Origin: Meandrina meandrites | Lineage: Eukaryota > Cnidaria > Anthozoa > Scleractinia > Meandrinidae | Assembly: GCA_963693305.1 (NCBI GenBank) | Contig: OY855905.1 | Location: 1,316,201-1,380,200, forward strand | Direction of reading: 5' to 3' | Length of the DNA stretch: 64,000 nt | Shown: piece by piece, positions 16,378 through 55,010 of the stretch | Layout: each line of letters begins with the position of its first letter | How positions within the stretch are numbered: the first letter of the stretch is position 1 | The notes under the pieces: generated by a model | The model's input: the letters and a program-made list of their open reading frames with translations, nothing else | Database searches by the model: none | Told to the model about the DNA's origin: nothing | Position numbers and translations under genes: made by a program

Positions 16378-16408
<31 letters not shown>

Positions 16409-35401: not shown

Positions 35402-35523
35402 CATTATTACATTTGTGACCAAATCTTATTACACTTGTGACTTTATTACATTTGTGACCAAATCTTATTACACTTGTGACTTTATTACAATTGTGACCAA
35501 TTATTACACTTGTGCCTTCAACA
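35402..35523 (-). repeat. Right terminal inverted repeat of the Ginger-like element
   Basis: It is the inverted counterpart of 32016-32140, with about two tandem units instead of three, and ends GTGCCTTCAACA before the duplicated GATGG. Confidence 0.85.
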
Positions 35524-38800: not shown

Positions 38801-38911
38801 CAGAAGTCCATAACTAGAAGTCTACATCTGGTATTGGGGCGCGTGCTATGTCTTTCGCGTGTAGGCTATTTTTAGAAACTGATGTCTCGCGAGAAAATGA
38901 CGTAACCCACT

Positions 38912-39197
38912 AGTAGTATAGCCGGTATTAAACAAATACCACTTTGGGTGCACCTAAATTTTTCACCTCTTCAGGAGACTAGTAGTCAGGGGAACCAAAC
39001 CAAACCACGCTCACAAAGCTCGCGTGGCCCGGTTATGGCCCCTGACTATAGTCTCCTAAAGAGGTGAAAAATTTAGGCTTACCAAAGGTAGTATTTGTTT
39101 AATACCGGCTATACTACTTAGGAAAAAGGACGCAGGAAACATAAACAAAGGGCGGCAGGGACAAGCATTTAGAGGAACGCAGCAGTCATGTAAACAA
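38912..39197 (+). repeat. Left terminal inverted repeat of the Polinton, 286 bp
   Basis: The outer 207 bp (38912-39118) reads identically to the right end by eye and is itself an imperfect palindrome: the arms begin AGTAGTATAGCCGGTATTAA and end with its complement, and the centre holds CCACGC and GCGTGG. The inner part (39119-39197) differs from the right copy at a handful of sites. The first gene starts at the last base of the repeat. Confidence 0.9.
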
Positions 39198-39550
39198 TGG
39201 GACGTGGAAGAAAAGGAATTATTTCCCAAAGTCAAAAAAAAATCAGAAAGCCCAAAATCAACCTGGCAACCAAGGATATATTTATAGATCCACCAATACA
39301 CATTTCAGACGAGCTGCTCACAGCAATGAAAACAATGAGCCCACAAGATTTAAAGAACACACTTATCCAACCGGAAGAAGAACAAGAAGAAGTCGACTTA
39401 ACAGATATGGAAGAGTACGATTTGACGGGATCAGGTGAGCCGGTTTATGAAACACCAATCATGACGCCGCAGCTGTACCGCAGAATGATGGCAAATGAGT
39501 TTAGCCAGGACCAGGTAGAGTACATAATAAAGAAAAGTTTGAAGTTTTAG
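39197..39550 (+). CDS. Polinton left-end hypothetical protein 1
   Basis: The product is 117 residues: a basic N-terminus (MGRGRKGIISQSQKKIRKPK), then acidic EEEQEEVDLTDMEEYDLTG, and a helical C-terminus. I know no family. It starts on the edge of the terminal repeat without a TATA motif near the ATG, and lies in the left cluster of three small same-strand genes, a place where accessory or early genes would be expected. Confidence 0.6.
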   Translation: MGRGRKGIISQSQKKIRKPKINLATKDIFIDPPIHISDELLTAMKTMSPQDLKNTLIQPEEEQEEVDLTDMEEYDLTGSGEPVYETPIMTPQLYRRMMANEFSQDQVEYIIKKSLKF

Positions 39551-39750
39551 GGGGGAGATAAGTTTATAGACCGTTCAGCAGCGTCAAGAATAGCTTCTAC
39601 AGCTTGAGAAGTAATAAGTTTGACATCATTCACCCAAAAGGGAGAAGAAAGGTCTTTGAAAGCGCACACAATCGCGTGGAACAGCACAATCATACTATAT
39701 AAACTGAAAATATTTTTTACCACCATTTGGAGAAAAGCAGCAGGTTGTAA
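39551..39750 (+). promoter_or_regulatory. Early-type promoter region with TATATAAA
   Basis: A canonical TATATAAA lies at 39696-39703, 47 bases before the ATG at 39751. This spacing allows a start about 25-30 bases downstream and a short leader, unlike the TATA motifs that abut the virion gene start codons. Confidence 0.45.
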
Positions 39751-40053
39751 ATGTCACTCACACCCGAGCAAAAAAAAAAGCTTTTTAATAAAAAACTGGC
39801 TGAGATAATGGCGGAAGCAGCGAAAAAGTTCGAAGAAGAAATAAAAAAATATCAAGAAGACCCCTATGTGTATATCGATGGAAAGAGAATCAAGAAACGT
39901 CTAAACCAATGTATCCCATACACGGAGGAAGAATGGGAAAAAGAAATGGAAAAACGAAAGGGGTACAAAAACAGGCAGCTGATAAACTTCATAGATAAAG
40001 TTTTTTTCGAAGACGGCGCGCTGCAATTAGAGAAACGCGGCATAAGGAAATAA
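39751..40053 (+). CDS. Polinton left-end charged helical protein
   Basis: The 100-residue product is dominated by Lys/Glu helices (KKKLFNKKLAEIMAEAAKKF, EEEWEKEMEKRKGYKN) and probably forms a coiled coil. No family is recognised. It lies 2 bases ahead of the next gene start, so both may be read from one transcript. Confidence 0.6.
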   Translation: MSLTPEQKKKLFNKKLAEIMAEAAKKFEEEIKKYQEDPYVYIDGKRIKKRLNQCIPYTEEEWEKEMEKRKGYKNRQLINFIDKVFFEDGALQLEKRGIRK

Positions 40054-40055
40054 AC

Positions 40056-40469
40056 ATGGATACATTAGAACTGATACAAGCACTTCCACAAGAACTTCGA
40101 GAAAAAATCTGCAACGAGTATATTGTAATAAAACTCTGGCAGCGTAAAATGCTTGGCTGGGACGATGTCAGAAAAGAAATCTCTAAAGGGTATATTAAAA
40201 TGAAGCTCAGACAGCGAAAAACTCTTGGCTGGGATAAAGTTCATGCTGCAATCTATGAAGCTCCATTTTGTGATCGCAATAAACAAATTGTAAGGGTCTT
40301 GTTCTGTTATAAATGTGACAGAAGCAGATGTTCGCGAAATGGTCTCTGTAATCTGTGTATTAGGAATGGATTCAGACACTATCTCGGTTATCCTATTTTT
40401 GATGAAAATGTTTATGATGAGTGCTTCAAGAGATCTTTCTCCTCGAAATGGAGAGGAGTCTTTGCGTGA
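40056..40469 (+). CDS. Polinton F-box-like, Cys-rich protein
   Basis: The 137-residue product starts MDTLELIQALPQELREKI, similar to F-box-like N-termini of viral proteins (LPxEL followed by helices). A module of about 24 residues is repeated: KLWQRKMLGWDDVRKEI and KLRQRKTLGWDKVHAAI. The C-terminal half has a zinc-binding-like set, CYKCDRSRCSRNGLCNLC. A role in diverting ubiquitin ligases is inferred from the F-box resemblance only. It follows the preceding gene by 2 bases. Confidence 0.6.
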   Translation: MDTLELIQALPQELREKICNEYIVIKLWQRKMLGWDDVRKEISKGYIKMKLRQRKTLGWDKVHAAIYEAPFCDRNKQIVRVLFCYKCDRSRCSRNGLCNLCIRNGFRHYLGYPIFDENVYDECFKRSFSSKWRGVFA

Positions 40470-40532
40470 CCTTTTCTCAGAAAGACCAGAGACAGGAAAA
40501 ACTACATGCATGGTTACACGTCAGCAAACTTA

Positions 40533-42173
40533 CTACCTAAAAGAAAAATCGTCTATTAAAATTAAACTTACTAATACATGTTTTGTATTTGGTAGGAGAT
40601 GGGTGGCTAAAGGCTGGCCGGAATCTTCCCCCGCTAAATCAAGTGTAAAATATTCTCCCTGGTTTATTTTAATACTCCGATTGCCACTTAAACGAGGCTC
40701 TACATATTGGTATTGAAAGTCATAGGTACTACGTGTACTTTTAAATACTTTATCGTATAATGAATAAGTATCGTCAGTTTTTCTAAATCTAAAACCTATT
40801 TTTTCATAATTTTGAGCCGAACCTTTATCTAAAATTAAAATAGAGACAGCATCAATGATGCAATTAAATGGCGCCATTACACGCCAGTCATTACCGAATT
40901 GAACATAAGTTCTTAAGGTTTCTCTATTTACATCTGGTTTCCATTCTCCTGTTATTATTATTTTAGGTCGGAAATTTTTTAACGCATAACCGTTTAGATC
41001 TAAATCTTTTTGTAATTTGATTGTATCGTTGTCTATTGTGTAGCCAGGAGGAACATAATTTTTTATTTGAAAAAAGTTCATATCTAAATTTGTTTGTAGA
41101 GTAAAATCACCGGAGGAATCGAGAAAGAAAACATCATCGTAAATAATTCCGTCTATATCTGATTGATACCCCTTAACACCGTAAATGATTAAAGCGGCCT
41201 TTTCACTAGGTGCTGAACCATCATAACCCGGATTTAAAATGTCAAAATAGATAGTGTCGTCATTCTTATCTTTTAATTTGTAAGTATTAAAAATGATCCT
41301 CATATACGGAGGGTTATGGGTGGCAAAGCGTTTGGTGTGGTAGGTAATAGTACTGGAGGCCAACTTGTTTAAAGGGTTAAGAAACCAGTTTTGGTCGTTT
41401 TTGTTTTTAGGGTAAAAGAACTCAACACATATAGTGTACTCTCGTTCTTTTAGAGGTGTTTTAGTCAACGCCAAACGCGAGTTGAAAGAATTGTCACTTG
41501 TTTTTATAATGTTAAAAGTGTAAGCCTTTTTATTGACACTGTGAAGGTTGGATGTAAAGTCTTCAACGGTAACAGAAGAAATATTGTTTACAGCTGAAAC
41601 TCCAACCCTTTGGGTTAAAAAACCTAAGTCATTCTTTTTATGAGCGTGCCCAGTTGTAATTACAGAGGAGCCCACATATTTTTTCATTGAAGTGAGATTG
41701 ACAGCATCTTGATCGCCGACAGGATTTGCGAGCTGTTTGATTGCATGGTCGTTCATGACAATGTCACCAGTAACGCTAGCTGATGACATATCCCCACTAT
41801 CACCCTTTTCCCCTTTTTCACCTTTATCTCCCATAGCGCCCTTTGAACCCGCAGGTCCAGTTGCTCCAGTGGGTCCCGCAGGTCCAGTTGCTCCAGTTGG
41901 TCCTGTAGGTCCCGTTGCTCCCGCAGGGCCAGCAGGTCCGGTCGGACCTTGTGATCCCGTATCACCTTTTATTCCTTTTTCTCCAGCATTGCCTTTATCT
42001 CCTTTAGGACCTTGTGGACCAGTATTACCCTTATCACCTTTTTCACCTTTAGGACCACGCGCTCCAGTTGCGCCAGTTGGACCAGCAGGACCAGCAGGAC
42101 CGGTTTCCCCTCGGATTGAAGTAGACTCTTCATGTGTTTGAGTTGCACCCGTCGCACCGTTAATAAACCCCAT
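40533..42173 (-). CDS. Collagen-like fibre protein of the virion
   Basis: The product is 546 residues. Residues about 22-128 are 35 uninterrupted Gly-X-Y triplets ([24 protein letters not shown]), the signature of a collagen triple helix. Residues about 139-170 resemble shaft modules of viral fibres ([20 protein letters not shown] then a KKYV), and similar modules recur near 375 and 400 ([22 protein letters not shown]). The C-terminal 150 residues are beta-rich and would be the knob. It likely forms a trimeric receptor-binding fibre at virion vertices. TATATAT lies 3 bases before the ATG, inside the end of the ATPase gene. Confidence 0.75.
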
Positions 42174-42186
42174 CTCTATATATTTT
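42174..42186 (-). promoter_or_regulatory. Late-type TATA of the fibre gene
   Basis: TATATAT (42177-42183) overlaps the stop codon of the ATPase gene and lies 3 bases before the fibre ATG. It belongs to the set of start-proximal motifs of the element. Confidence 0.5.
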
Positions 42187-42808
42187 CATCAAAATTTTTG
42201 AGTGTGGTTTTTTTTGGTTTGTCGTGGTATAAAAAAGAATATTTAGCATTGGTAGCCCTTTCAAGCAGCTCTCTGTCAATTCCCAATTCATCAGCAATAC
42301 GGTTATTTTCTCTGGGAAGAAAGTTGAAAATGCAAAAGTGGGTGCAATTATCTCGGATGTTTTTGGGGGTCTTGAAGTAGCTTTGAGAAAGATAAATGAC
42401 GCTGCAATTGCGCTGCCGCCCATTCATAAAATAATCGATAATGTCGTTTTGGTTTTTTTCACAAACCATATCATCAAAGATTACAATTTTTTGGTTGTCA
42501 GTGGGCAGCATCTCAAGAGGAATAACATCGTTGGCGCCTTCAATAACGTTATACCCAGCCGCAGGATTGACTCTTTTATCGAAATCATCAATCATATATT
42601 GGTACTTGTCTTGATGCAGGTTCTTTGTGCAAAGGTAAATTTTGTCGTAGACCAACAGCCTGTAAAGCATATGCATGAGAATATTTGTCTTACCAGAGTT
42701 GCTTGGCCCGCAAATAAGCATCCGAAAGGTATCTGCTGGCATACAAGGGTGGCCTTGCTTGTAATTACTTTTTGTAGTCAAACTGGGGTCGTAATTGGGA
42801 ATTTTCAT
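42176..42808 (-). CDS. Genome-packaging ATPase (FtsK/HerA type)
   Basis: The 210-residue enzyme has a Walker A GPSNSGKT at residues 34-41, a Walker B IVIFDDM at 108-114 and a likely arginine finger in KTPKNIRDN near residue 152. Polinton and adintovirus ATPases of this class translocate DNA into the capsid. Its length fits the family. It runs divergently from the 42837 gene over a shared palindromic TATATATA and its end abuts the fibre gene start. Confidence 0.9.
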
Positions 42809-42818
42809 TTTTTTCTGT

Positions 42819-42826
42819 TATATATA
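42819..42826. promoter_or_regulatory. Bidirectional TATATATA
   Basis: The perfectly palindromic octamer lies with exactly 10 bases on each side before the ATPase ATG (42808, minus) and the ATG at 42837 (plus). It is the only intergenic candidate for both genes. Confidence 0.6.
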
Positions 42827-42836
42827 CGGCAAAAAT

Positions 42837-43730
42837 ATGTCCATGAAGAAGTGGCAAAAACTTGTCAGCGAAAAGGCTGAAGTTGAGCAGCAGAACGACA
42901 GCATTCTCGCGGTAATAAAAAATAACAAAATCAATAAAGGGTTTGGCCAGCTATCAGGTGAGGATTTGTTCAAACCTATCACATCGCGGCTTGACAAACT
43001 CCAAGTAGGGGATAGCAACTCAAAAGAAGAGGAAGAAATTCCAGACTATGGTATGGATGAGTTTGATTTAAACAACCCCTTCGACGGAGATTTTAAACCG
43101 GATGAGGAAACTCCACCTCCAACACCATCACCATCACCATCACCATCACCATCACCATCACCAACGTCATCACCACCACCATCACCAACAACATCACCAC
43201 CACCATCACCATCATCAACACCATTGCCACCTTTAGCTGAAGAGGAAGAAACGGAATTAATGGAAAGCCCAGCGAAAAAACCAAGTAAATGGGGACCACC
43301 AAAAGAACCAGTTATCAGAGGATCAGAGTCGGTTGACCTGCAGACACTGAGCAGCATGTTAACAAAAAATAAAGACAATCCGAACTATGTTGTAAAAAGC
43401 AAAAAATCAAAATTCTATGGCTACACATTGGAAGACATAAAAAGTGCAAGAAATGAAATTCTTGCCAGGAGACAAGGGAAGTTTATGCCCCCCGCCGATT
43501 GGATACCCCCTCCACCTGATGAGGATGAAATTGAAAGAGAAATGGAAGGAAGCGGAAGTGTTGATCCAAACGCTTTGGTTGAAAGGCTACACTTAAGCTT
43601 GGCGTCTATACAGGCGGGCAACACTTCACTGAAGCTGAAAAAACAGGTCCAGCAGATGTTAGGGTTGCTGGTAAAGCTAAAGGAAATAACACAAAAAGAA
43701 GCCCACAAAATTTTGAGTAATATTATATAA
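42837..43730 (+). CDS. Polinton virion-associated proline-rich protein
   Basis: The ATG at 42837 (MSMKKWQKL) is preferred over 42795 because of the TATATATA 10 bases upstream and the spacing to the ATPase gene. The 297-residue product has a charged helical N-terminus, an acidic patch (PDYGMDEFDLNNPFDG), a low-complexity PSPSPSP run at about residues 90-135, and a conserved-looking C-terminus (LHLSLASIQAGNTSLKLKKQ). I associate that C-terminal block with uncharacterised Polinton proteins. It lies directly before the penton gene and may be a minor structural or scaffold protein. Confidence 0.6.
   Translation: MSMKKWQKLVSEKAEVEQQNDSILAVIKNNKINKGFGQLSGEDLFKPITSRLDKLQVGDSNSKEEEEIPDYGMDEFDLNNPFDGDFKPDEETPPPTPSPSPSPSPSPSPTSSPPPSPTTSPPPSPSSTPLPPLAEEEETELMESPAKKPSKWGPPKEPVIRGSESVDLQTLSSMLTKNKDNPNYVVKSKKSKFYGYTLEDIKSARNEILARRQGKFMPPADWIPPPPDEDEIEREMEGSGSVDPNALVERLHLSLASIQAGNTSLKLKKQVQQMLGLLVKLKEITQKEAHKILSNII
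43724..43730 (+). promoter_or_regulatory. Late-type TATA of the penton gene
   Basis: TATATAA overlaps the stop codon of the preceding gene, 5 bases before the ATG at 43736. Confidence 0.5.
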
Positions 43731-43735
43731 GCAAC

Positions 43736-44515
43736 ATGTCAACCCATTTTCATTTCAACCTGTTGCTCGACTCGCAGCTGGCTAAACAAAACAACGCCAA
43801 CAGCAAGTCACATGACTTTACAATTAACTTTGACCCGCCAATCGCTTTAGAACCCTTCAAAAAGTACAAGGCGGCGTTAAATGAGCTGGTATCTATGTCT
43901 TATTCGTGGTACAACATCGCGAAACGGTACAACAACAACGAATTCAAATGGCGGAAAAAAACAGAGAACTGGAAAACCGTGACAATTCCGGATGGAATGT
44001 ATGATTACGACGGTCTCAACACCACCATTCAGGCACTAATCGGAAGAGTGGATCCCAAGGATGAAAAATCCAAGTTTATTTTTCAGCTGTATTTTCACAC
44101 CACAACGTATCGGGCGGTTATTTTGTTGGAGGACGGCTACGAGCTTGATCTAAGTGGAGGTGAATTTGCTGCGTTGCTGGGTTTTGACAAGAAAACAATA
44201 GACGGAGCGAACAATAGGAGCGACCACGTGCCAAATATAACAAGAGGTGTCGACTGGATCTACATCCATTGTGATCTCATTACAAGAGCAGTGGACAACA
44301 TCGGGGGCGACGTCATGTTCTCTTTTTCAACCGCTGAACTCTCCGTCAGCTACCCCTTTTCAAAAGAGCCCCGCCGTCTCTTGTGGCACCCGGTGAACAA
44401 AAATAGAATCAATGCGATAAATATCAAAATCACGGACGGGCGCAACAACATTATAGATCTGAATGACCAAGACGTGGCTTTAAGTATCATCATTGAAGAA
44501 GAAAAAGAAAAATAA
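43736..44515 (+). CDS. Minor capsid protein (penton, single jelly roll)
   Basis: The 259-residue protein has the block order of Polinton penton proteins: an N-terminal strand (HFHFNLLLDSQLAKQ), FTINFDPPIALEPFKKYKAA, the IPDGMYDYDGLNTTIQALI element, a GGEFAALLGF turn and late strands (WIYIHCDLI). Family proteins form pentamers at virion vertices and anchor the fibre. Its position between the packaging ATPase block and the major capsid gene agrees with this role. The frame is intact. Confidence 0.8.
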   Translation: MSTHFHFNLLLDSQLAKQNNANSKSHDFTINFDPPIALEPFKKYKAALNELVSMSYSWYNIAKRYNNNEFKWRKKTENWKTVTIPDGMYDYDGLNTTIQALIGRVDPKDEKSKFIFQLYFHTTTYRAVILLEDGYELDLSGGEFAALLGFDKKTIDGANNRSDHVPNITRGVDWIYIHCDLITRAVDNIGGDVMFSFSTAELSVSYPFSKEPRRLLWHPVNKNRINAINIKITDGRNNIIDLNDQDVALSIIIEEEKEK

Positions 44516-44534
44516 TTTACACCTAAGTATAATA

Positions 44535-45047
44535 ATGAATCATCCGAGCGAGTGGGCGAGATATTATGACGCGCCAAACGGAACATATAGATACAGACAC
44601 AAAGGTACGGGGGTTGTAAGAGACACCCTGATGAATATAGGAAAGCGGTTCAAAAAGAAGGTCACCCGTCAGACGTTGGAGAAGGCTGTAAATGAAGCCT
44701 CGAAGCGAATGCTAAAAAAAGCCGCAGAAAAAGCAGAAGAAAAAGCGGCAGACAAGATACAAGCGGTTTTGCGGCGTGGGGTATCAGCAACTATGCAACC
44801 CACACCAAAGAGTAAAAAGACTCCAAGTGTAAAACCAAAGAGTAAAAAGACCCCAAGTGTAAAACCAAAGAGTAAAAAGACCCCATCACAGAAACTTAGT
44901 ACAGAGTCGAAACAAAAACTGAAGAAGATGCTAAACCCTGGGGTAGCAACTCAGTTAAGCGGGGATTCACGGAAAAAGTTGCAACAGATCTTAAACGCGG
45001 GTCGGGCTGCAAGGTTGAAAGTAAACCAATTGATAGCAGAAAATTAA
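44535..45047 (+). CDS. Basic virion core-like protein
   Basis: The chosen ATG at 44535 (MNHPSEWARYYDAPNG) lies after AGTATAATA; an in-frame ATG at 44493 would overlap the penton gene end. The 170-residue product is very Lys-rich and carries three copies of PKSKKTPSVK-type decamers (residues about 91-120), like DNA-condensing core proteins. That role is inferred. The lysine helices KAAEKAEEKAADKIQ precede the repeats. Confidence 0.6.
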   Translation: MNHPSEWARYYDAPNGTYRYRHKGTGVVRDTLMNIGKRFKKKVTRQTLEKAVNEASKRMLKKAAEKAEEKAADKIQAVLRRGVSATMQPTPKSKKTPSVKPKSKKTPSVKPKSKKTPSQKLSTESKQKLKKMLNPGVATQLSGDSRKKLQQILNAGRAARLKVNQLIAEN

Positions 45048-45064
45048 AATAATTTTTTAAAAAG

Positions 45065-45071
45065 ATATATA
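45065..45071 (+). promoter_or_regulatory. Late-type TATA of the major capsid gene
   Basis: ATATATA ends 9 bases before the ATG at 45081, in the short gap after the basic protein gene. Confidence 0.5.
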
Positions 45072-45080
45072 GGACGCAAG

Positions 45081-46346: not shown

Positions 46347-46350
46347 TGGA

Positions 46351-46457
46351 ATAATTTTGTATGAAATATAAGAGATGCTGAGTGACTGAGTTGCAACTTT
46401 GTAGCAACTTTGTAGCAAATGAAAGTGAAATAATTTTTGTATGAAATATAAGAGATG
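46351..46457 (+). repeat. Duplicated promoter/start segment
   Basis: TTTGTATGAAATATAAGAGATG occurs twice exactly 80 bases apart (written TTTGTATGAAATATA then AGAGATG), ending at ATGs at 46375 and 46455. The first ATG leads into a four-codon reading frame; the second starts the gene. Between them AGTTGCAACTTTGTAGCAAC is repetitive. It may be a doubled late promoter or a decoy. Confidence 0.65.
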
Positions 46458-46892
46458 ACGACTTACTATCCGCACAAGATTTCACTTACAGACGGGCAGA
46501 AGGTAAACCTCGCGCGGGCCTTTGGGCGAGGAGAAGCAGTTACACTCAGATTTAAAAACGAGGCTATAACCGGCGGTAGCGACATTTTGCACTTGACCAC
46601 CAGGCAGATCAAAAAAATAGAGCGCGCTATCAAAAACAAAACGGGCGTGGACATAGACATGAGCAAGACACAAATCAGACGTGTGCGCAACGCTATCAAA
46701 AAAACAACAGGCGTGGATAACGCTATCAAAAAGAAAACAGGCGTGGATAACGCTATCAAAAAGAAAACAGGATCAGGTATGCGGGTAAAACCTCCAACAG
46801 GATCAGGAATGCGTATCAACCCTCCACCATATATGCGCCCTCCTCCATTTATAGGTTCTTGGGGTGATCAAAAAAAAGCCCGCCTTCGTTGA
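46455..46892 (+). CDS. Conserved Polinton protein with SKTQIRR motif
   Basis: The 145-residue product has LTDGQKVNLARAF, LHLTTRQIKKIERAIKNK and DMSKTQIRRVRNAI, blocks I recall in many uncharacterised metazoan Polinton proteins. A decapeptide-type repeat follows (DNAIKKKTGV, three tandem versions) and then TGSGMR and Pro-rich pieces. The strongly basic nature suggests a virion core role. It overlaps the protease start by 29 bases. Confidence 0.65.
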   Translation: MTTYYPHKISLTDGQKVNLARAFGRGEAVTLRFKNEAITGGSDILHLTTRQIKKIERAIKNKTGVDIDMSKTQIRRVRNAIKKTTGVDNAIKKKTGVDNAIKKKTGSGMRVKPPTGSGMRINPPPYMRPPPFIGSWGDQKKARLR

Positions 46893-47334
46893 TGTCCCCT
46901 TAACCGATTATGACTTGCAGCGATGGTGCCAATACTTGAAAATCCCCATTAAAGGTATATTTGCGAGAGACGAGATCCACGTGAAAAACCACTCCCCTTG
47001 TATAATCAACATGGATGATCTTGGAGGGCCAGGCACCCATTGGGTATGCTGCTGGGGATCAGCAACTGAGTTGCTACCTGAATACTTTGACTCTTTCGGT
47101 TTACCTCCACCCGCGGAATGGGAAATTGAGTTGATTCTCGAGGGCAAACAGACCTTTCTACGAAATGACAACCAGCTTCAGTGGGAATCCAGTGTGCGCT
47201 GCGGCTACTACTGTTTGCTTTTCCTGAATGAGCGTAACAAAGGGCGGTCGTTTCGAGATATTTTGAGCATGTTTTCTGAAAATACGCGCGCCAACGAGGC
47301 TGTGGTGAAGGATTATTTTACACATAATGTATAA
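46864..47334 (+). CDS. Adenovirus-type cysteine protease (virion maturation)
   Basis: The 156-residue protein shows the catalytic order of adenain-like C48/C5-type proteases: His59 in GTHWVCCW, Asp76 in YFDSFG, a Gln near 104-106, and Cys113 in RCGYYCLLF. Such enzymes cleave capsid and core precursors. The length is normal. It overlaps the upstream gene by 29 bases, so no separate promoter lies between them. Asp76 replaces the Glu used by some relatives and is acceptable in the family. Confidence 0.85.
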   Translation: MIKKKPAFVDVPLTDYDLQRWCQYLKIPIKGIFARDEIHVKNHSPCIINMDDLGGPGTHWVCCWGSATELLPEYFDSFGLPPPAEWEIELILEGKQTFLRNDNQLQWESSVRCGYYCLLFLNERNKGRSFRDILSMFSENTRANEAVVKDYFTHNV

Positions 47335-47336
47335 AG

Positions 47337-47666
47337 ATGGATGTTTACTGCGTAAAAGAAAAGCGTTTCACACCCAATGTGACGGGGAGTGAAAAAATCA
47401 CAACCACAAAAAACAATAGAAGACTGCTCAGAGTAAAATGCGCCAGCTGCGGCATTACCAAGACAAGGTTCTTACCAGTAAACGGAGACAAAAAAGGCGG
47501 CGCGTTGTCGTCGAGAAGGGGACCTTCGACTGTTGATAAAATTGCGTATGTTGCCTCGAACTTTGTGACCCCTGCCCCCAGTTTCGCTGCAGCGGCCAAA
47601 ATACTCGGAAGCCAAGCTTTGAAAGGGGTTACGGACAACGTAAAGTATTTTAGGAAGAGCCGTTAG
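47337..47666 (+). CDS. Zinc-ribbon (DUF5679-like) protein
   Basis: The product is 109 residues. Residues 1-45 (VYCVKEKRFTPN to CASCGITKTRF) match the DUF5679-type zinc-ribbon-like domain known from giant viruses and Polintons. The rest has a Gly/Arg-rich link and an amphipathic, hydrophobic helix (NFVTPAPSFAAAAKILGSQ). It shares 39 of its first 45 residues with the next gene. TATAAA is 1 base before the ATG and overlaps the protease stop. The hydrophobic tail suggests a membrane-active or core peptide, which is inference. Confidence 0.7.
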   Translation: MDVYCVKEKRFTPNVTGSEKITTTKNNRRLLRVKCASCGITKTRFLPVNGDKKGGALSSRRGPSTVDKIAYVASNFVTPAPSFAAAAKILGSQALKGVTDNVKYFRKSR

Positions 47667-47691
47667 AGGGCTTCACAATTTTTTCTTGAAG

Positions 47692-47697
47692 TATATA
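47692..47697 (+). promoter_or_regulatory. Late-type TATA of the zinc-ribbon/PLA2 gene
   Basis: TATATA ends 6 bases before the chosen ATG at 47704; an upstream in-frame ATG at 47686 lies in front of it, which supports the later start. Confidence 0.5.
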
Positions 47698-47703
47698 GGT
47701 AGG

Positions 47704-48564
47704 ATGGAGGTATACTGCGTGAAGGAAAAGCGTTTCACACCAAATGTACCGGGAAGCGAAAAAAACACTACCGCAAAAAATGGTAGAAGGCTGCTTAAAG
47801 TAAAATGCGCAAGTTGTGGCATCACCAAAACACGATTCGTTTCTAATAAAACGCAAAGTGGTGGTGGTAATTATGATATGAGAATTTATGCGGGTAATCG
47901 AGTAGATGACCCAACAAACCCTCTTTACCAACGTGGTGGGGCTTTTGATTTGCATAAAGCTATTGGTAAGCTGCCTAAGCCAAAAAAGGGGTGGACACTT
48001 CCTGGTCATAACTACACAGGACCGTACAATCCTCTTGAAAAACAGCTTTCTTACGACCCCAAAACGGGAAAGATATTAAAGATTTATCAACAACCCACAG
48101 GTGCCACGGACGCGGTGTCAATGCAGCATGACGTTGATTATGCCGTCTGCGCCGGAAAGAAAAATGAGAAAGGCTGCAAACATGATGCAGACAAAAAAAT
48201 GGTGAAGGCGCTTGACGCTATTCCCAAAAACAAACGGCAATGGGGTCACGCCGCGGCGCGCAACGCAATCAGCTCGAAGCAAAAAGTGGGATTGGGTGTC
48301 GGTGAAACGATCAATAAAAATATCGGCGAAAAGATTCCAGGCTTTCAACCGGCTCAAGATGTGGCTGCTGCAATCATGGCTGTCACAGGTGGTGATAAGG
48401 ATTTGTTTAAAAAGTATTGGAGTGGTGACATCGCAAAAGGTGCCTTTAACACGAAAACCGGTCTGTTCAGCAAAAAGTTTTGGACACACCCTAAAAATAC
48501 AACTGGACCATGTAATCGGATTGTATATAAAAATGGAAAATGGCATAACCAATATTGCGATTAG
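47704..48564 (+). CDS. Zinc-ribbon/parvovirus-type phospholipase A2 fusion
   Basis: I chose 47704 because its MEVYCVKEKR aligns with the start of the paralogue at 47337. Residues 1-45 are the zinc ribbon; residues about 98-165 are a parvovirus VP1-like phospholipase A2: the calcium loop LPGHNYTGPYNPLE, then the catalytic pair His142-Asp143 in MQHDVDYAVC and a second Asp in KHDADKKM. In parvoviruses this enzyme opens endosomal membranes during entry. Here it would be a minor virion protein with the same duty, by inference. The C-terminus of about 100 residues is unknown. The total is 286 residues with no interruption. Confidence 0.8.
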   Translation: MEVYCVKEKRFTPNVPGSEKNTTAKNGRRLLKVKCASCGITKTRFVSNKTQSGGGNYDMRIYAGNRVDDPTNPLYQRGGAFDLHKAIGKLPKPKKGWTLPGHNYTGPYNPLEKQLSYDPKTGKILKIYQQPTGATDAVSMQHDVDYAVCAGKKNEKGCKHDADKKMVKALDAIPKNKRQWGHAAARNAISSKQKVGLGVGETINKNIGEKIPGFQPAQDVAAAIMAVTGGDKDLFKKYWSGDIAKGAFNTKTGLFSKKFWTHPKNTTGPCNRIVYKNGKWHNQYCD

Positions 48565-48584
48565 ATTACACATTTTTTAAACAC

Positions 48585-48591
48585 ATATATA
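48585..48591 (+). promoter_or_regulatory. Late-type TATA of the membrane protein gene
   Basis: ATATATA ends 3 bases before the ATG at 48595. Confidence 0.5.
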
Positions 48592-48594
48592 GAA

Positions 48595-49113
48595 ATGGAT
48601 TCAGCAACAAAATTCCGGCGGGATGAAATAGAATTGATAAAGAAAAATCTTGAAAACCAGTTGGTGCATTACTACCAAACCTCAGCCAAGTTTAAACGGT
48701 GGCACACGCGTTGTCAAACAGTATGCGCGTTAACAGGTGGAGTTGCTACCATTCTTACAGGCTCTGGGTTGGCCGCTTCTCTTTCTGTGGTTGGCGTTGT
48801 TGTTGGCGCCCCTTTAATCGCAACGGCCACCCTGTTTTCATTGGTGTCAACCTCCTCCATCGTCACCGTCAAATTTTTCCTGCGTAAAGCGAAAAAACAC
48901 GAAAAAATACAAACTTTGGCTGAAGCTACGCTGAGCTCAATCAACTCTCTCATATCAACCGCTCTTGAAGATGGTAAAATCTCAGACAGTGAGTACCAAG
49001 ATATTATCAAAAAGTACAACAGCTTTACTACTGCAAAGACAAAACTGCGTTTTTCAAACCACACTGACGGCGGGGTAAAGGTTAACAGAACATCAAAGAC
49101 AACTTCTGTTTAA
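48595..49113 (+). CDS. Polinton membrane protein
   Basis: The 172-residue protein has a basic N-terminal helix, a hydrophobic Gly/Ala/Val-rich region at about residues 42-95 (GVATILTGSGLAASLSVVGV and VGAPLIATATLFSLV) able to form two membrane helices, and a C-terminal helix with ISDSEYQDIIKKY. The last block is one I associate with uncharacterised cnidarian Polinton proteins. It may be an inner-membrane or membrane-lytic component. Its last 21 bases overlap the end of the opposing gene. Confidence 0.6.
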   Translation: MDSATKFRRDEIELIKKNLENQLVHYYQTSAKFKRWHTRCQTVCALTGGVATILTGSGLAASLSVVGVVVGAPLIATATLFSLVSTSSIVTVKFFLRKAKKHEKIQTLAEATLSSINSLISTALEDGKISDSEYQDIIKKYNSFTTAKTKLRFSNHTDGGVKVNRTSKTTSV

Positions 49114-49587
49114 TGGTGGGGTGTTTGCCTCCAACCACCATTCGTTGAAACTTTTTTCGGCTTTATTTCTGGTTTGTACCATCTTCGGCAATCTTTTCGT
49201 GAGCTTTCCCAGTATTGCATTTTTCGCCGGCCAATCTCTTGTTGAGACCTTTTGAAAATAGTTGTATAAAAAACAAACGTAGTTACACGATCCGAGATTT
49301 ACCTGCTTGAATTGGTGAATGACATTACCCAAAAAGGTCAGCCCCATTTCGTCACCGACCTGTTCTAAAGAAATGCCGGTTTTTTTAAATACTGCAATTA
49401 AATACCATAATTTTGGTTTGGGAGGGTGACCCATCTCTTCGGGCTCAGGGTAGAATTCCCCCTCGTAACGGTCGTCAAGATCTTTTTCGGGCTTGATTTC
49501 TTTTATTTTCGCTTCCTGGTCTTTTACCAACATTTCTTTTAGCTGTTCTCTGTGGGGGTCACCCCTTAGGTAAGGTTTTGTAGCCAT
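49093..49587 (-). CDS. Polinton hypothetical protein next to integrase
   Basis: I chose the ATG at 49587 (MATKPYLRGD) because TATATAT lies 1 base upstream; an ATG at 49605 is possible. The 164-residue product has a charged N-terminal region (KEIKPEKDLDDRYEGEFYP) and a hydrophobic middle with a few Cys (LGSCNYVCFLYNYF). It is not a recognised family. It runs convergently into the membrane protein gene and divergently from integrase with a gap of 28 bases. Confidence 0.55.
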   Translation of the reverse strand: MATKPYLRGDPHREQLKEMLVKDQEAKIKEIKPEKDLDDRYEGEFYPEPEEMGHPPKPKLWYLIAVFKKTGISLEQVGDEMGLTFLGNVIHQFKQVNLGSCNYVCFLYNYFQKVSTRDWPAKNAILGKLTKRLPKMVQTRNKAEKSFNEWWLEANTPPLNRSCL

Positions 49588-49588
49588 G

Positions 49589-49595
49589 TATATAT
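49589..49595 (-). promoter_or_regulatory. Late-type TATA before 49587 gene
   Basis: TATATAT sits 1 base from the ATG on the minus strand. The integrase on the other side starts after ATTATTTAA, not a TATATA. Confidence 0.5.
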
Positions 49596-49615
49596 GCCCG
49601 CGCATAATTATTTAA

Positions 49616-50602
49616 ATGGACCGAAAATTAGAGCGGCGTTACTACAGCCCACAAGGTTACTGGAAAGGTATCTCCGCCATTAAAAAATTAGCGGTCGCTG
49701 CAAAGGTTCCTGAAGTTGTTGCCAAAGAATGGTTGTTCAAACAAGCGCTCTGGCAGATTTACCTCCCCGCACCGCGCTACATTCCTCGCCTAAAATTCGA
49801 CGTGCCTACGCCCAACAAAGTGCATCAGGCAGATCTTCTTTTTCTGCCACATGACAAAGTGGGCCGTAGCACTTACAAATACGCGCTTACCGTTGTTGAT
49901 GTTGCCAGCAGATTCAAAGAAGCTCAGCCTTTAATCTCTAAAAACTCTGATGAGGTTGCCAAAGCTTTTAAGACAATTTATACACGTGGACCTCTGAAGT
50001 GGCCTCAGATGTTGCAAGTTGATCCTGGGCGTGAATTTATGGGCGCTGTTACAAAAGAAATGGAAAATCACAAAACTTCTATCAGACGTGGTCACCCTGA
50101 AATTCATAGAGACCAAGCTATTGTTGAACGTTTCAATCGTACCTTGGCTGAGCGTTTGTTTGGCCACCAGTACGCAGTTGAAATGCGTTCGCCTGAGGGC
50201 CCGCGATCTACTGTGTGGGTAAAAAGGCTCCCCAAAGTTGTTTCTGCTCTGAACAACCAAGTCACTCGATTGATTGGTATGAAACCTGCTGCCGCAATCA
50301 AGAAAAAAAATGTTTATGCGGAGCCATCAACTAAATATTTGAGACCCGTTGGTTTGAACGAAAAAAAGCTCCCATCCATCGTTATGCTTCGGTATTTGTA
50401 CGAACCTGGTGAGCTTGAAGGCGGGACGAAAAGAGCCACTGATCCAATCTGGTCTTTGAAAGTTTACAACCTTGAACGTTCTTTTTCCAAACCGAATCAA
50501 CCTGTTCTCTACTATTTGCGCGACGGCCCTAAGCGTGGTTTTGTACGTGAAGAACTGCTTGTGGTACCTCCGGATACAGAATTACCTCCAGCTGTGGGGT
50601 AA
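49616..50602 (+). CDS. Polinton integrase (retrovirus-like, rve)
   Basis: The 328-residue enzyme carries the catalytic set Asp73 (HQADLLFLP), Asp136 (QVDPGREF) and Glu171 (AIVERFNRTLAE), a D-D35-E signature. The N-terminus has no clear HHCC zinc motif. The C-terminus (DPIWSLKVYNLERSF, FVREELLVV) is chromo/SH3-like. It inserts the linear element into host DNA, here with a 5-bp CCACT duplication. It converges with the polymerase gene with 8 bases between stops. Confidence 0.92.
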   Translation: MDRKLERRYYSPQGYWKGISAIKKLAVAAKVPEVVAKEWLFKQALWQIYLPAPRYIPRLKFDVPTPNKVHQADLLFLPHDKVGRSTYKYALTVVDVASRFKEAQPLISKNSDEVAKAFKTIYTRGPLKWPQMLQVDPGREFMGAVTKEMENHKTSIRRGHPEIHRDQAIVERFNRTLAERLFGHQYAVEMRSPEGPRSTVWVKRLPKVVSALNNQVTRLIGMKPAAAIKKKNVYAEPSTKYLRPVGLNEKKLPSIVMLRYLYEPGELEGGTKRATDPIWSLKVYNLERSFSKPNQPVLYYLRDGPKRGFVREELLVVPPDTELPPAVG

Positions 50603-50610
50603 ACCTCCAC

Positions 50611-53600
50611 CTAAATGTGATATTCGATAGGTTCGGTGTGTATCCCATCGGGCAGCACCCATCGTTTGTCATAATAAGCACTCAGCCCCAGCTTCTCCTG
50701 CTCGTATGTCACTATTTTCCCTTCCCGCATCCGGAACCCTCTGTTTGTTGCCATATCTTTGTTGCCTTCCAACGCCGCTTTGAAACGTTGCCAGGTAATG
50801 GAGTTTTGCTTCTTTGACACCCCTTTTGTGCTTAGCTTCTGCTTTTCTCCCCTGTCATCCGCGAAATAACATTTTGAGCACAGCGCTATCATCCGCTCCC
50901 CCGCAAACTCCTGCTTAAATAGCCCTGGTATTCTCCCTCTCCACTGTTTCCAGGCCTTCCAATCCCCTTTTTTTGCCGCAAATTCTTCTTTTAACTCTGG
51001 GTGCACTGTGTCCTCGAGTTCCTTATTTGGTATTCGCCAATTCCACTTGCTCCATGCCAGCCAATTCTTTTTTTCCTCCTCGAATTCTTCTCTCAGCTCT
51101 GGCCTTACTATGTCTTCGAGTTCCTTTCCTGATATTGCCAAATAGTTGCTGTCCGTGTCCATCTGGATCAGCTCGAAATCCTTTCTGTCAATGTACCTGT
51201 CCAGGAAGTCATAATAAAATTCCAACATCCTCAGCTTTGCCAGCTGGTATACCGCGATTCCTATCTGAAATGGACGTCTTATTGTGATCCGGGGCTTTCG
51301 GCTTTCTAACTCATACGCCGCTCCTATCTCATCAAGATCTGAATAGTATGCACTTCTCAGAGCTCTGTCAACTACCTTCTCATCTTTTGTGTAAATGACA
51401 TTTGTTTGCCGTTCTAAGGCTTCGATTAGCTTTCCGTACCCACTGTTTCCCAACAGTTTGAACACCTCAGCCAGCAGTGCTTTGCTTTTTTCCACGTCTC
51501 CTGTCCGGCGAGCCTCCGTAACTTGTTCCACAAACCAGGGAAAGATTTTGGCTGGTGTGTAGTCAATTGTCCGATAAACCCTTTTGATAACTGCACCGTG
51601 ATTCACATACCAGAGCAGTAGAGGCGCGTACACAAGTATCTTCTGTGCTGACAACGTTCCCATGAGTTTCTTATCTTCTCCTCGTTTTCTTTCTGTATCG
51701 CGCAAGTATTTGAGCATATGCTCTGGGACAGCTTTGACTGGCACCGTTTTGTTGTGAAAGAACGGGCACATTTCCTCAAACTTTTGGTGTAAGTGATTTG
51801 GAATCTCAATATCTATTTCAGCATATCCAAACCAGCTTCTTTCTTTGAGTCTGTGCGTTAGTACTGGTGCGCCGTCTATTTGATACTCACCTGTATAGTG
51901 TACAACCCTTTCCTTTCCACAAGGCATTTCTCTTAGCATGGTTGAGAGATACAAGGCGTTGGCATCATATCCGAGGATGTTTTGGCAAAGTTTTGGTTCT
52001 GCTATTTGATGTGATCTTATTCTTGTTTTTCCAACTTCATGGTATCTTGTGAAAACGAGGCTTGGGCCTCCGACTACCGCCCCTTTTAACATCTCATATG
52101 CTTCTTTTCTTGGGGCATATAGTTCCGCTTTGCGTTCAATAGCTCCTCTTAGAAGGTAATGTAAGCTCACACCTGGGATGCTGACTGCGTCTTTCATTAT
52201 ATCGATTCCCTTCTCTGTGTAGAAGTTTCTCATCTTTTCCAGAGCCTCAAGTCCGGGGGCGACATCGAGATTATTGTAGTAACGCACCCAGTCTTTGAAG
52301 GTTTTCATTCCCTTTTCTCGGAACGTTTGTTTACAGGCTTTCCATTCTGACAGTTTTAGTGTGAATTCATTTTTCAACTTTGAGTACCAATGCGGGTAAT
52401 CCGGCAATCCTTGGTAATCCAGCTTTTCAGGTCTGTCAAACCACTCGTATGGAAACCATGATTTTGTTGTCTTGCAGTCGTATGCCTTTACCCATTTCTC
52501 GTAGCTCGTTCCTGGGCCCAAGTAGTTGATTATGTCAAGGAAACGGAAGCCAGAAGTGAGTAAGAACATGATTTTGTTTCCGTGCTTTGCTACTCTGACT
52601 TTGTTGGTTGTGTCCGCAAGTTTTTCTGCGAAGTGTTTCTTTATTAGATTAAGATCGTATTGCCCGGAGTTGAAACCCAGTACTGGGACCTGGTCGCACC
52701 ATTCTTCTATTTTTTTCCTCTGATCTTTCGGTAGCAGGTTTACATCTGCTGGCATAAATTCATCTCTTACTTTTGTTCTTATGTTTTTTCCGCGTCTTTC
52801 CAACTCTTCCGCGAACTTGCGGACCAGATCTGCTGGATCTTTTTCACAGATATGGGTTGGCTCTCTTTCAAGAGTGTCACCGATGCTTACTGAGATTGGA
52901 ACGTGTACGTTCTCGATTGTGAGTGAGTCTGTCGGCTCCTTCCGCTGATTGTTGTCTCCGTATGCCTCAAAATCATACAAAATAGCGTGTGGGTAACTTT
53001 TTGTTTTTGCTTCCGGTAGTTGTTCAATATATTTGTCTCCGACTTCGCAGGCCCAACACTCAATCACTCTGTAGCCTTCCTTTCTGAGATAAGCTGTACG
53101 TCTCTTTGTTGCTTGGTAGAGATCTTCTCTTGTTTTGTCGCCGCGATCGATTATTTTGTCGCGATCGTGGTAACATTTTGGACATCCGTGCCAGTAGCAC
53201 CCGTGATACTGTAACACCAGCTTTTTCTCATGGTTGTAGCCATCAACTGATCTTTTCCCTATCCAACGCTCTCCTCCGTGTCCTGACATTGCGTGGTGAA
53301 TGGGGATTTTCCAATGCTTTGCTACGTACTCAAGCCACTGAATTGATTCTTTTGAGGCTTGATGTTTTGGATAAAACGCTTTCTCATAAGCTGTCTGGGG
53401 TGCTTCGACCTTTTCACCTGGGCAATCTATTACGGTTTTCCCTTGAGCGCATCTTTCTGCATGACGTTGAAGACTGACGGATTGGGTGAATCTTGCTTTG
53501 CAGTGGATGCATGCATAAGTTTTCGCTAACTTTGCCATATCTTTTATTAAGAACGCGTGCTCTTCATAAATTCCTATTGTCATTATGTTTTTTAACTTCG

Positions 53601-54645
53601 ACGTCGGATTTCTTGCTAGATGCCATACAACTTCTTTTTCATCTATACGCTCTGGTACATATACCCTTATTCCCAGCCAACCTGAGAAAGCAGTGCCCTT
53701 GTTCAGGTGCATTTCTACCTTTTCCAATTCATCAAGTGAGGTTTTTACACAATTGGTCGGCGTATCCCTGAGCTTGAAAAAACTCTTAGCTAGACCTTGC
53801 GCCGCTTTTGTACTTCGATCTGGTCTAGCTCCTTTGTGTACGGCAATACACCGCCATAGACACATGTTATCTCTATAGGTATCCAGTGCTACCATTGAAC
53901 GACTATGTGCAAGGTTGCGCAGCCAGTTTGGTAAGGGTCCTGTTCCCATCAGTGGTTGACGGTCAAGTACAACCTTTACATCAGCATTAAAATGAGCCTC
54001 GAAGATCCACTTTGTGTTTGGTCTTTCGATACTGTCCGCATCCAGACGTACAGCCTCCCTATTTCTTAACCAATTCTCCGCTTCTCCATATGTATTCATC
54101 CAAGGAGAGCCTTTATTTTGGTAGTAGAAAATTATGGTACCGTCTTCAATGTTACGTAACATATACGAATAAACGTGCCTCATGTAAAATGATGTCCTCA
54201 CGTTCTCTCTTATTTTTTCCATAAATTTTGGTGTGAGGTCTTTATTCAGTTCTTTTATGATGCGCCATCTCTTGTACCGCCTTCCGTTGCTCTCTTCACC
54301 TTCAAATTTTGCGTCTCCGTACAGATCCAGAATCTCATTCTGGTAGTCTGTCACATTTCTTATGTTATTCGGTTGAATGGGATCAAATTGCCTCAGAAGT
54401 TGTTGTCTTTTGTTCTTATTTCTCGGTGGTGGTATTGGTTGGAAAGGTTTTGGTTGTAAAGGCGGACGTAAACGCTTCTTTGCGGTTTCTGAAATTGGTT
54501 CTTCCAGCACATTCCTTATTATCTTTTTAACTGCGGGTACGTTTTGCGATAAATGACGCAGTTCTGCGGGGTCTATTTTTGCAAGTTCTTGTTCGAGAGA
54601 TTCGAGGTCTACATTTTCAAAAGAACTGAGGTCTATTTCGTCCAT
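50611..54645 (-). CDS. Protein-primed DNA polymerase B
   Basis: The 1344-residue enzyme shows the proofreading exonuclease motifs LYDFEAYG (about residue 558), FNSGQYDLN and YYNNLDVAP, and the polymerase motifs A (GYDANALYLSTM, about 892), B (LLGNSGYGKL, about 1066) and C (QMDTDSNYL, about 1162). The N-terminus has a DNMCLWRC piece suggestive of an OTU-like fold, a C2H2 finger (CIHCKARFTQ, about 380) and a YHGCYWHGCPKCY block (about 482) like a restriction-type nuclease. Protein-primed polymerases copy linear viral genomes from a terminal protein. After motif C a 34-residue segment is tandemly duplicated (50923-51126), which is unusual. The gene starts 2 bases after a TATAT. Confidence 0.93.
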   Translation of the reverse strand: MDEIDLSSFENVDLESLEQELAKIDPAELRHLSQNVPAVKKIIRNVLEEPISETAKKRLRPPLQPKPFQPIPPPRNKNKRQQLLRQFDPIQPNNIRNVTDYQNEILDLYGDAKFEGEESNGRRYKRWRIIKELNKDLTPKFMEKIRENVRTSFYMRHVYSYMLRNIEDGTIIFYYQNKGSPWMNTYGEAENWLRNREAVRLDADSIERPNTKWIFEAHFNADVKVVLDRQPLMGTGPLPNWLRNLAHSRSMVALDTYRDNMCLWRCIAVHKGARPDRSTKAAQGLAKSFFKLRDTPTNCVKTSLDELEKVEMHLNKGTAFSGWLGIRVYVPERIDEKEVVWHLARNPTSKLKNIMTIGIYEEHAFLIKDMAKLAKTYACIHCKARFTQSVSLQRHAERCAQGKTVIDCPGEKVEAPQTAYEKAFYPKHQASKESIQWLEYVAKHWKIPIHHAMSGHGGERWIGKRSVDGYNHEKKLVLQYHGCYWHGCPKCYHDRDKIIDRGDKTREDLYQATKRRTAYLRKEGYRVIECWACEVGDKYIEQLPEAKTKSYPHAILYDFEAYGDNNQRKEPTDSLTIENVHVPISVSIGDTLEREPTHICEKDPADLVRKFAEELERRGKNIRTKVRDEFMPADVNLLPKDQRKKIEEWCDQVPVLGFNSGQYDLNLIKKHFAEKLADTTNKVRVAKHGNKIMFLLTSGFRFLDIINYLGPGTSYEKWVKAYDCKTTKSWFPYEWFDRPEKLDYQGLPDYPHWYSKLKNEFTLKLSEWKACKQTFREKGMKTFKDWVRYYNNLDVAPGLEALEKMRNFYTEKGIDIMKDAVSIPGVSLHYLLRGAIERKAELYAPRKEAYEMLKGAVVGGPSLVFTRYHEVGKTRIRSHQIAEPKLCQNILGYDANALYLSTMLREMPCGKERVVHYTGEYQIDGAPVLTHRLKERSWFGYAEIDIEIPNHLHQKFEEMCPFFHNKTVPVKAVPEHMLKYLRDTERKRGEDKKLMGTLSAQKILVYAPLLLWYVNHGAVIKRVYRTIDYTPAKIFPWFVEQVTEARRTGDVEKSKALLAEVFKLLGNSGYGKLIEALERQTNVIYTKDEKVVDRALRSAYYSDLDEIGAAYELESRKPRITIRRPFQIGIAVYQLAKLRMLEFYYDFLDRYIDRKDFELIQMDTDSNYLAISGKELEDIVRPELREEFEEEKKNWLAWSKWNWRIPNKELEDTVHPELKEEFAAKKGDWKAWKQWRGRIPGLFKQEFAGERMIALCSKCYFADDRGEKQKLSTKGVSKKQNSITWQRFKAALEGNKDMATNRGFRMREGKIVTYEQEKLGLSAYYDKRWVLPDGIHTEPIEYHI
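50923..51126 (-). repeat. Internal 102-bp tandem duplication in the polymerase
   Basis: Two 34-codon units follow the catalytic DTDS: one starts KELEDIVRPELREEF and the other KELEDTVHPELKEEF, and both end with W..R/GRIP. They are spaced exactly 102 bases, preserving the frame. Confidence 0.85.
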
Positions 54646-54723
54646 TGTATATTATGCAGAAAAATATTTTTTTATTTAATTAATTGTTGTTAACTTAATG
54701 TTGTGTTTTTCTATTTGAAAGAT
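54646..54723. other. Gap between polymerase start and right repeat
   Basis: TATAT at 54648-54652 precedes the polymerase ATG. The rest is AT-rich and would carry its promoter. Confidence 0.4.
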
Positions 54724-55010
54724 TTGTTTACATTACTGCTGCATTCCTCTAATTGCTTGTCCCTGCCGCCCTCTGTTTATGTTTCCTGCGTCCTTTTTTC
54801 CTAAGTAGTATAGCCGGTATTAAACAAATACTACCTTTGGTAAGCCTAAATTTTTCACCTCTTTAGGAGACTATAGTCAGGGGCCATAACCGGGCCACGC
54901 GAGCTTTGTGAGCGTGGTTTGGTTTGGTTCCCCTGACTACTAGTCTCCTGAAGAGGTGAAAAATTTAGGTGCACCCAAAGTGGTATTTGTTTAATACCGG
55001 CTATACTACT
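54724..55010 (-). repeat. Right terminal inverted repeat of the Polinton, 287 bp
   Basis: The outer 207 bp (54804-55010) matches the left repeat; the inner 80 bp shows a one-base length change and a few substitutions. It shows the same palindromic architecture. Confidence 0.9.

Follow-up and report, generated by a model that had tools for sequence, protein, structure and literature searches.

The element and its genes

Within the analysed window, a stretch of 64,000 nucleotides from Meandrina meandrites (contig OY855905.1), positions 38912-55010 hold an element of 16,099 bp, the size of a Polinton/Maverick element (Table 1). Its outermost bases, AGTAGT...ACTACT, give its terminal inverted repeats the (AGT)2//(ACT)2 ends by which Polintons/Mavericks are recognised, a motif described for vertebrate Mavericks (PMC8097293). 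The inverted repeats end exactly where a sequence-only reading of this DNA had drawn the boundaries, with CCACT on either side. That reading took CCACT to be the target duplication, and both copies are indeed there, but a six-base duplication, CCACTA, is also allowed if A38912 is assigned to the target; the length is thus five or six, and a Polinton/Maverick is expected to have a 6-bp duplication.

Table 1. Features of the element and its flanks, in window positions. The motif column gives the position of the TATA of the late-type gene-start motif.
Feature	Positions	Strand	Motif	Remarks
Target duplication CCACT, left copy	38907..38911			CCACTA if A38912 is counted
Left terminal inverted repeat	38912..39197	+		~286 nt; outer 207 nt (38912-39118) one palindrome, starting AGTAGT and ending ACTACT
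117-aa ORF	39197..39550	+	absent	
Fibre-like protein with collagen stalk, 546 aa	40533..42173	-	42182	Collagen, E 8.3e-18
Packaging ATPase	42176..42808	-	42822	Pox_A32, E 3.3e-15
297-aa Ser/Pro-rich ORF	42837..43730	+	42821	Motif overlaps that of the ATPase
Putative penton, 259 aa	43736..44515	+	43724	From gene order
Major capsid protein (MCP), 421 aa	45081..46346	+	45066	1293 relatives; model and fold matches
145-aa basic ORF	46455..46892	+	46447	Duplicated motif at 46367
Adenain-type protease frame	46855..47334	+		ATG absent from conserved N-terminal part
DUF5679 protein, 109 aa	47337..47666	+	47330	
DUF5679 and phospholipase-A2-like protein	47704..48564	+	47692	Phospholip_A2_4, E 2.1e-8
172-aa ORF	48595..49113	+	48586	
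170-aa ORF	49093..49605	-	absent	
Retroviral-type integrase	49616..50602	+	49589	D73, D136, E171; motif further upstream
Family B DNA polymerase (PolB), 1344 aa	50611..54645	-	absent	PF03175, E 2.4e-18; possible N-terminal OTU-like region
Right terminal inverted repeat	54724..55010	-		Outer 207 nt (54804-55010) palindromic
Target duplication CCACT, right copy	55011..55015			Next base is A

The gene content is also that of a Polinton/Maverick. The major capsid protein is predicted by structural modelling to be a double jelly roll, as expected of this group, and a retroviral-type integrase, a packaging ATPase and an adenain-type protease are all present, the last without its start ATG. The integrase has its three catalytic residues, and its Pfam rve match (E 1.9e-6) lies below the curated cut-off; it gave no match in a PDB sequence search, and no Pfam match to a C-terminal chromodomain, an adintovirus trait. 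PolB is uninterrupted, with exonuclease and polymerase motifs. Adintoviruses are further characterised by a PolB with an N-terminal OTU-like domain. In this N-terminus C262 and H363 are invariant across 26 alignment rows, but no OTU match was found, the structural model is poor (pLDDT 44), and the alignment gave only zinc-finger-type and other weak matches against the PDB.

Among the virion genes, the fibre-like protein matches PHROG tail-fibre profiles (best 5e-34, a score that low complexity may inflate). The 259-aa product, a putative penton by gene order, has no match in Pfam or PHROG, and the 145-aa basic product is presumably mu/core-like. A PDB sequence search with the MCP returned nothing, and the MCP alignment gave one chance-level match. 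All nine organism-named MCP relatives among the best 120 of 1293 come from the stony coral Oculina patagonica, and fall in the clade neighbouring that of this copy in a quick tree. Scans of viral contigs with the MCP, its alignment, the PolB N-terminal alignment, a 23-mer of the terminal repeat, the protease alignment and the ATPase found no relative, nor did one profile scan of genome contigs with the MCP alignment.

The protease frame matches the profiles of ASFV S273R (E 3.7e-6) and adenain (E 0.023), and has no ATG ahead of MDDLGGPGTHW. Among the relatives listed that reach 83% identity and 97% coverage or more, eight of eight start where this copy has a non-ATG codon. Since GTG starts appear as M in the protein database, entry P0131 for this very copy being an example, the M starts of these relatives are only probably true start codons. 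A programmed frameshift fusing the 145-aa ORF with the protease was considered and dropped, as eight close relatives begin with M there. The sequence-only reading, which had all genes uninterrupted in an apparently intact element, is thus right for PolB, integrase, ATPase and MCP and somewhat too strong for the protease, whose frame is open but lacks its N-terminal ATG; the element is nearly complete.

Terminal palindromes

The inverted repeats 38912-39127 and 54795-55010 are identical over 216 nt (100% identity). Base by base in a gapped comparison, 210 nt are identical, followed by one indel and four substitutions up to offset ~286, which bears out the close match of the ends proposed earlier. 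Two identical 210-nt inverted arms, 15.7 kb apart around these genes, are far beyond chance. Furthermore, each terminal repeat contains a single 207-nt palindrome that the sequence-only reading did not mention, with 85 pairs within it (z -21.8 for the 216-nt repeat). An origin of the palindrome by simple nested insertion was rejected, as the 207-nt unit has no flanking target duplication.

A self-complementary terminal palindrome is what parvovirus-type hairpin replication calls for, and the ends of this Polinton resemble parvovirus hairpin ends in this respect. The element also shares with parvoviruses a Phospholip_A2_4 domain, which we take to be of parvovirus type. It differs from parvovirus-type replication in that the 20 scanned ORFs gave no Pfam match to a Rep/NS1 nickase-helicase. 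Bidnaviruses, whose PolB derives from a Polinton, share this type of PolB with the element, but their repeats are reported not to form hairpins, in contrast to the palindromic ends here (PMC4061559).

A genome search with PF03175 gave at least 148 matches, with 79 of 1193 candidates scored; none of the matches listed lies inside this element. In 20 end stretches located by PolB hits we saw no near-perfect long palindrome, though the element ends may lie outside these stretches, and PolB residues 1-655 had no match in them at E 1e-5. One other PolB family, its frames 1362-1388 aa long, is represented in five stretches by copies 98-99.8% alike over 2-4 kb, and its ends fall outside the stretches examined.

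The copy might be an old and decaying one that merely looks intact, for which the missing protease start and the differences in the inner terminal repeats (four bases and one indel) could be cited; we consider this very improbable, given the 210-nt identity of the ends, the matching target duplication, and reading frames of 1344 and 421 codons that are still open. The earlier proposal of a recent Polinton/adintovirus-like provirus in a cnidarian agrees with the end motif, the gene set and the Oculina patagonica origin of the named MCP relatives. We think it probable that the element is a Polinton/Maverick provirus, almost complete, that integrated recently into a coral-like host; it has two classes of gene starts, and the genes of the late class would form the virion. 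Relatives are numerous, in contigs as well as in the stony coral Oculina, so that a near-complete Polinton at this place is in itself an ordinary representative of a known group.

A late-type gene-start motif

Ten genes (MCP, ATPase, fibre-like, putative penton, integrase, 297-aa, 145-aa, both DUF5679 genes and 172-aa) share a motif that had not been noticed in the sequence-only reading: a T-run, about 13 nt, then TATA(T/A), with the TATA 7-27 nt ahead of the ATG. The commonest distance from the T-run to the start of the TATA is 13 nt. There are 11 such sites in the element against 8 in 48 kb of flanks, and 10 of the 11 lie 7-27 nt upstream of a gene start on the correct strand. The motif, which was discovered by inspection in one copy, precedes 9/16 gene starts, against 7/475 other ATGs of the element and 16/1585 ATGs of the flanks. 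Among genes not used for its definition, which had nonetheless already been looked at, 6/13 have it, compared with 2/1585. When ORFs of at least 100 aa are considered, the strict motif is found at 10/23 in the element, 0/15 in the flanks and 0/110 in 18 inner stretches, which lie beside some of the PF03175 matches listed and were picked by PolB hit, not by family. Since the strict motif is absent beside these other PolB hits, it does not hold for Polintons in general. A sigma-70/terminator scan remained near shuffled level.

Because gene starts are rich in AT, the pattern could be a mere AT-rich spacer between packed genes; 16/110 ORFs of the other stretches do have TATA(A/T) within 22 nt (9 of these 16 in stretches of GC 0.32-0.34). 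This explanation seems improbable to us, as the spacing of T-run and TATA is fixed, only 19/1137 AT-matched control starts carry the motif, and first-order random sequence gave a mean of 1.66 sites and a maximum of 7 in 200 runs, against the 11 observed.

By analogy, the layout of these gene starts is that of asfarvirus and poxvirus late promoters, and not that of a host TATA box. Common to both is a bipartite arrangement of a T-rich element and a TATA/TAAAT initiator near the ATG; asfarviruses and poxviruses differ in encoding the polymerase that reads these promoters (PMC5294985, PMC7163114), whereas we found no RNA polymerase among the 20 ORFs scanned in this element.

Proposed expression of a late class and likeness to known systems

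The arrangement suggests a life cycle in which the integrase would insert linear DNA and PolB would copy the element, with a protein, the folded-back palindromic ends, or both providing the primer. PolB and the left-end ORFs, which lack the motif, would form an early class. The ten motif genes would form a late class, transcribed from a compact bipartite promoter directly ahead of each ATG (T-run, about 13 nt, and a TATA serving as initiator) and yielding a double-jelly-roll virion. The reader of this promoter could be host RNA polymerase II, working in an unusual way, or the polymerase of a co-infecting large DNA virus.

In the usual view Polintons need no helper for their replication, and several ORFs without an assigned function could act on transcription. 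Both points favour a reading that we regard as quite conceivable, if short of probable, namely that host RNA polymerase II reads the motif (with an initiator-like TATA start and perhaps an element-encoded factor), or that the motif survives from an ancestor common to the element and large DNA viruses, no helper being needed in either case. However, the motif is absent from all 15 flank ORFs, and a host TATA box lies 25-30 bp upstream of the start (PMC5294985), so that with this spacing transcription from these TATAs would start inside the gene.

Dependence on a helper, in the manner of virophages, appears unlikely, but several observations speak for it. Under this proposal a large DNA virus infecting the host would supply the RNA polymerase that transcribes the late genes, and the provirus would wake at that time. 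The 13-nt spacing is close to the value of 14 nt that late promoters of ASFV show for TATTT and TATATA (PMC5294985); late transcripts of this virus have short leaders, with a median of 9 nt, and the spacing of these promoters is described as incompatible with the host TATA complex (PMC7163114). The late motif of CroV, TCTA, is present in mavirus (PMC8547959), and vertebrate Mavericks have been proposed to be activated by giant viruses (PMC8097293). The absence of an RNA polymerase from the scanned ORFs fits as well. Against a helper stand the lack of the strict motif beside the further PolB hits in this genome, and a 17-nt spacing in two integrase-related stretches (L040 and L041). More doubtful still is the full proposal of an animal Polinton with virion genes under late promoters of large-DNA-virus type, which would be a virophage-like provirus waking only with giant-virus transcription machinery, and whose ends may be hairpin telomeres.

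Animal Polintons/Mavericks, among them the coral Polinton known as Stylophora coral adintovirus (PMC11071308), have PolB, integrase, ATPase, protease and a double-jelly-roll MCP in common with this element, as well as AGTAGT/ACTACT-ended inverted repeats and a size of ~16 kb. In the Stylophora element the terminal protein has a gene of its own, whereas PolB here has 1344 aa with a long N-terminus, and palindromic repeats and compact late-type starts are not mentioned in the available part of the description (PMC11071308). Mavirus-type virophages have the motif TCTA (PMC8547959) in place of a T-run and TATA, and differ from this element, which has an animal-like host and no known helper.

Maverick virus particles are reported not to have been observed so far, and giant-virus activation of Mavericks is only a suggestion (PMC8097293). 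The palindromic ends pose a testable question, that is, whether protein priming is the sole mode of replication of such elements. The late-type control signal at the capsid and other genes hints at a route by which silent animal proviruses may be switched on, and a defined late-type gene start makes giant-virus activation testable in existing coral RNA data.

Termini and relatives of the Polinton

The sequence-only reading had described closely matching terminal repeats and a clean CCACT target duplication. The close match was confirmed base by base: the terminal inverted repeats (TIRs) are 100% identical over 216 nt in an ungapped comparison, and in a gapped one are identical over 210 nt and then show five differences (one indel and four substitutions) to offset ~286. 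CCACT is indeed present at both flanks, but the duplication may be six bases long (CCACTA) if A38912 is counted as target. Six bases is the length reported in intact vertebrate Mavericks, and AGTAGT/ACTACT, found here at the start and end of the element, is given as the commonest end motif of vertebrate Mavericks (PMC8097293).

Features of the window
Feature	Position	Description
Polinton element	38912-55010	16,099 bp
Second DNA transposon	32016-35523	inverted repeats of 120 nt, 99%, built of 39-nt tandem units
Repeated F-box-type ORFs	250-891, 6324-6980, 22523-23239 (-)	
Histone 3'UTR stem-loop	57398-57444 (+)	Rfam match above cut-off

Within each TIR lies a 207-nt palindrome forming 85 pairs, and the 216-nt TIR folds as DNA at -80.4 kcal/mol (z -21.8). 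The end motif lies at the outer end of the palindrome, with a mirrored copy at its inner end, and inspection of the palindrome's borders revealed no target duplication around it. The left and right TIRs have 0 differences inside the palindrome and 5 in the next 76 nt, a contrast whose chance, calculated post hoc, is 0.001, or 0.005 leaving out the indel. Such TIRs could arise by fold-back priming, by terminal duplication via template switching or through integrase recognition. Palindromes near 1301 and 16301 are as strong as those of the TIRs, so these structures are not rare in the window. Mutually related MITE-like fold-back repeats occupy 1214-1511 and 16297-16970 (91-98% in inverted pairs).

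Among the best 120 of 1293 relatives of the major capsid protein (MCP), all nine rows naming an organism are Oculina patagonica (65-82% identity, two covering only about half of the query), and most other rows are ENA contigs, the closest of them 96% identical; both organism-named rows among the best 120 of 225 family B DNA polymerase (PolB) relatives are also Oculina. A quick FastTree analysis places the element's MCP within a supported set of 38 rows, itself nested in a 49-row set that also contains all nine Oculina rows. In these same best-120 sets, 93/120 MCPs measure 415 aa or more and 83/120 PolBs 1290 aa or more; by length, many copies thus appear complete in both genes. The source assembly comprises 551 Mb in 56 contigs, and its host is likely a stony coral or an animal close to one. 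Since Maverick repeats are reported to account for 5.20%, 6.74% and 1.41% of the genomes of three Caribbean corals (PMC12005156), a Polinton here is unsurprising; cnidarian MCPs have been reported outside the main Maverick-Polinton cluster (PMC10120064).

In L040 and L041, two stretches beside other PolB matches in the genome, the integrase is 78-82% identical to the element's and the adjoining PolB merely ~25% identical, which indicates that modules recombine between Polinton lineages. In five further stretches (L047-L051), copies of a different PolB family match one another at 98-99.8% across 2-4 kb, a pattern pointing to a very recent expansion. The second transposon of the window encodes rve and OTU domains, has an integrase 37% identical to the Polinton's and resembles Ginger1 with OTU (PMC2836005). 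F-box-type matches were found in both ORFs scanned (two of the three), for 22523-23239 only below curated cut-offs.

A bipartite motif at gene starts

Inspection of the 50 nt upstream of each gene start revealed TATA directly before many ATGs. A layout of TTTT, gap, TATA(A/T) and ATG occurs at 9/16 element gene starts, compared with 7/475 other element ATGs, 16/1585 flank ATGs and 19/1137 AT-matched ATGs. The strict motif (T-run 12-14 nt before TATA) has 11 sites in the element and 8 in the 48 kb of flanks; first-order random sequence of the element's size gave a mean of 1.66 and a maximum of 7 in 200 runs. Ten of the 11 sit 7-27 nt upstream of a same-strand gene (fibre-like, ATPase, 297-aa, putative penton, MCP, 145-aa, DUF5679, phospholipase-A2-like, 172-aa and integrase), and the last duplicates the 145-aa gene's motif, 8 nt before an ATG opening just four codons. 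Upstream of PolB, the 117-, 100- and 137-aa ORFs, both 170-aa ORFs and the protease, the strict motif is absent; the 170-aa ORF at 44535 has TATA at -7 without a T-run. The DUF5679 head is itself duplicated in 47337-47838 (82% over 136 nt), and a phospholipase-A2-like domain is fused to the second of the two copies.

When defined on four genes, the motif matches 6/13 other starts (protease counted) versus 2/1585 flank ATGs (p 2e-12), in a test that was not blind, all genes having been seen beforehand. It also matches 4/475 other element ATGs, three just inside motif-bearing genes and one at the duplicate.

As a genome control, we took 18 stretches beside other PolB matches and considered ORFs of at least 100 aa. 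The bipartite motif precedes 10/23 such ORFs in the element, 0/110 in these stretches and 0/15 in the element's flanks. TATA(A/T) alone within 22 nt precedes 12/23, 16/110 and 0/15, respectively, and 9 of those 16 come from stretches of GC 0.32-0.34. By eye, L040 and L041 have a T-run and TATA 17 nt apart before their integrase starts, a looser version of the element's motif, and in L041 this TATA directly precedes the ATG. The exact motif thus appears to be specific to a lineage. That speaks against a general effect of host or composition, and likewise against a feature shared by every Polinton.

A possible late promoter

In a host promoter the TATA box is 25-30 bp upstream of the transcription start (PMC5294985), a distance at which the start would here fall inside the gene. 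In the late promoters of ASFV, by comparison, TATTT is described at positions -15 to -11 relative to the start and TATATA at -1 to +5 (PMC5294985), the initiator is TA(+1)TA, and late leaders have a median length of 9 nt (PMC7163114); the spacing of 14 in these promoters is close to the element's commonest T-run-to-TATA spacing of 13. Mavirus carries the late motif of its helper (PMC8547959), and giant-virus activation of vertebrate Mavericks has been put forward as an idea (PMC8097293). Dependence of the element on a helper would be one reading of the proposed late-type promoter, though we regard it as unlikely. Literature searched at title and abstract level (up to 20 entries per search), with the original adintovirus description outside its scope, described no animal Polinton with palindromic TIRs or with late promoters, which is weak evidence of absence.

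On the strength of the misfit to the host distance, the likeness to ASFV, the mavirus precedent and the Maverick-activation idea, we propose that the element's genes may be split into an early and a late class, the latter being read from a promoter of large-DNA-virus type.
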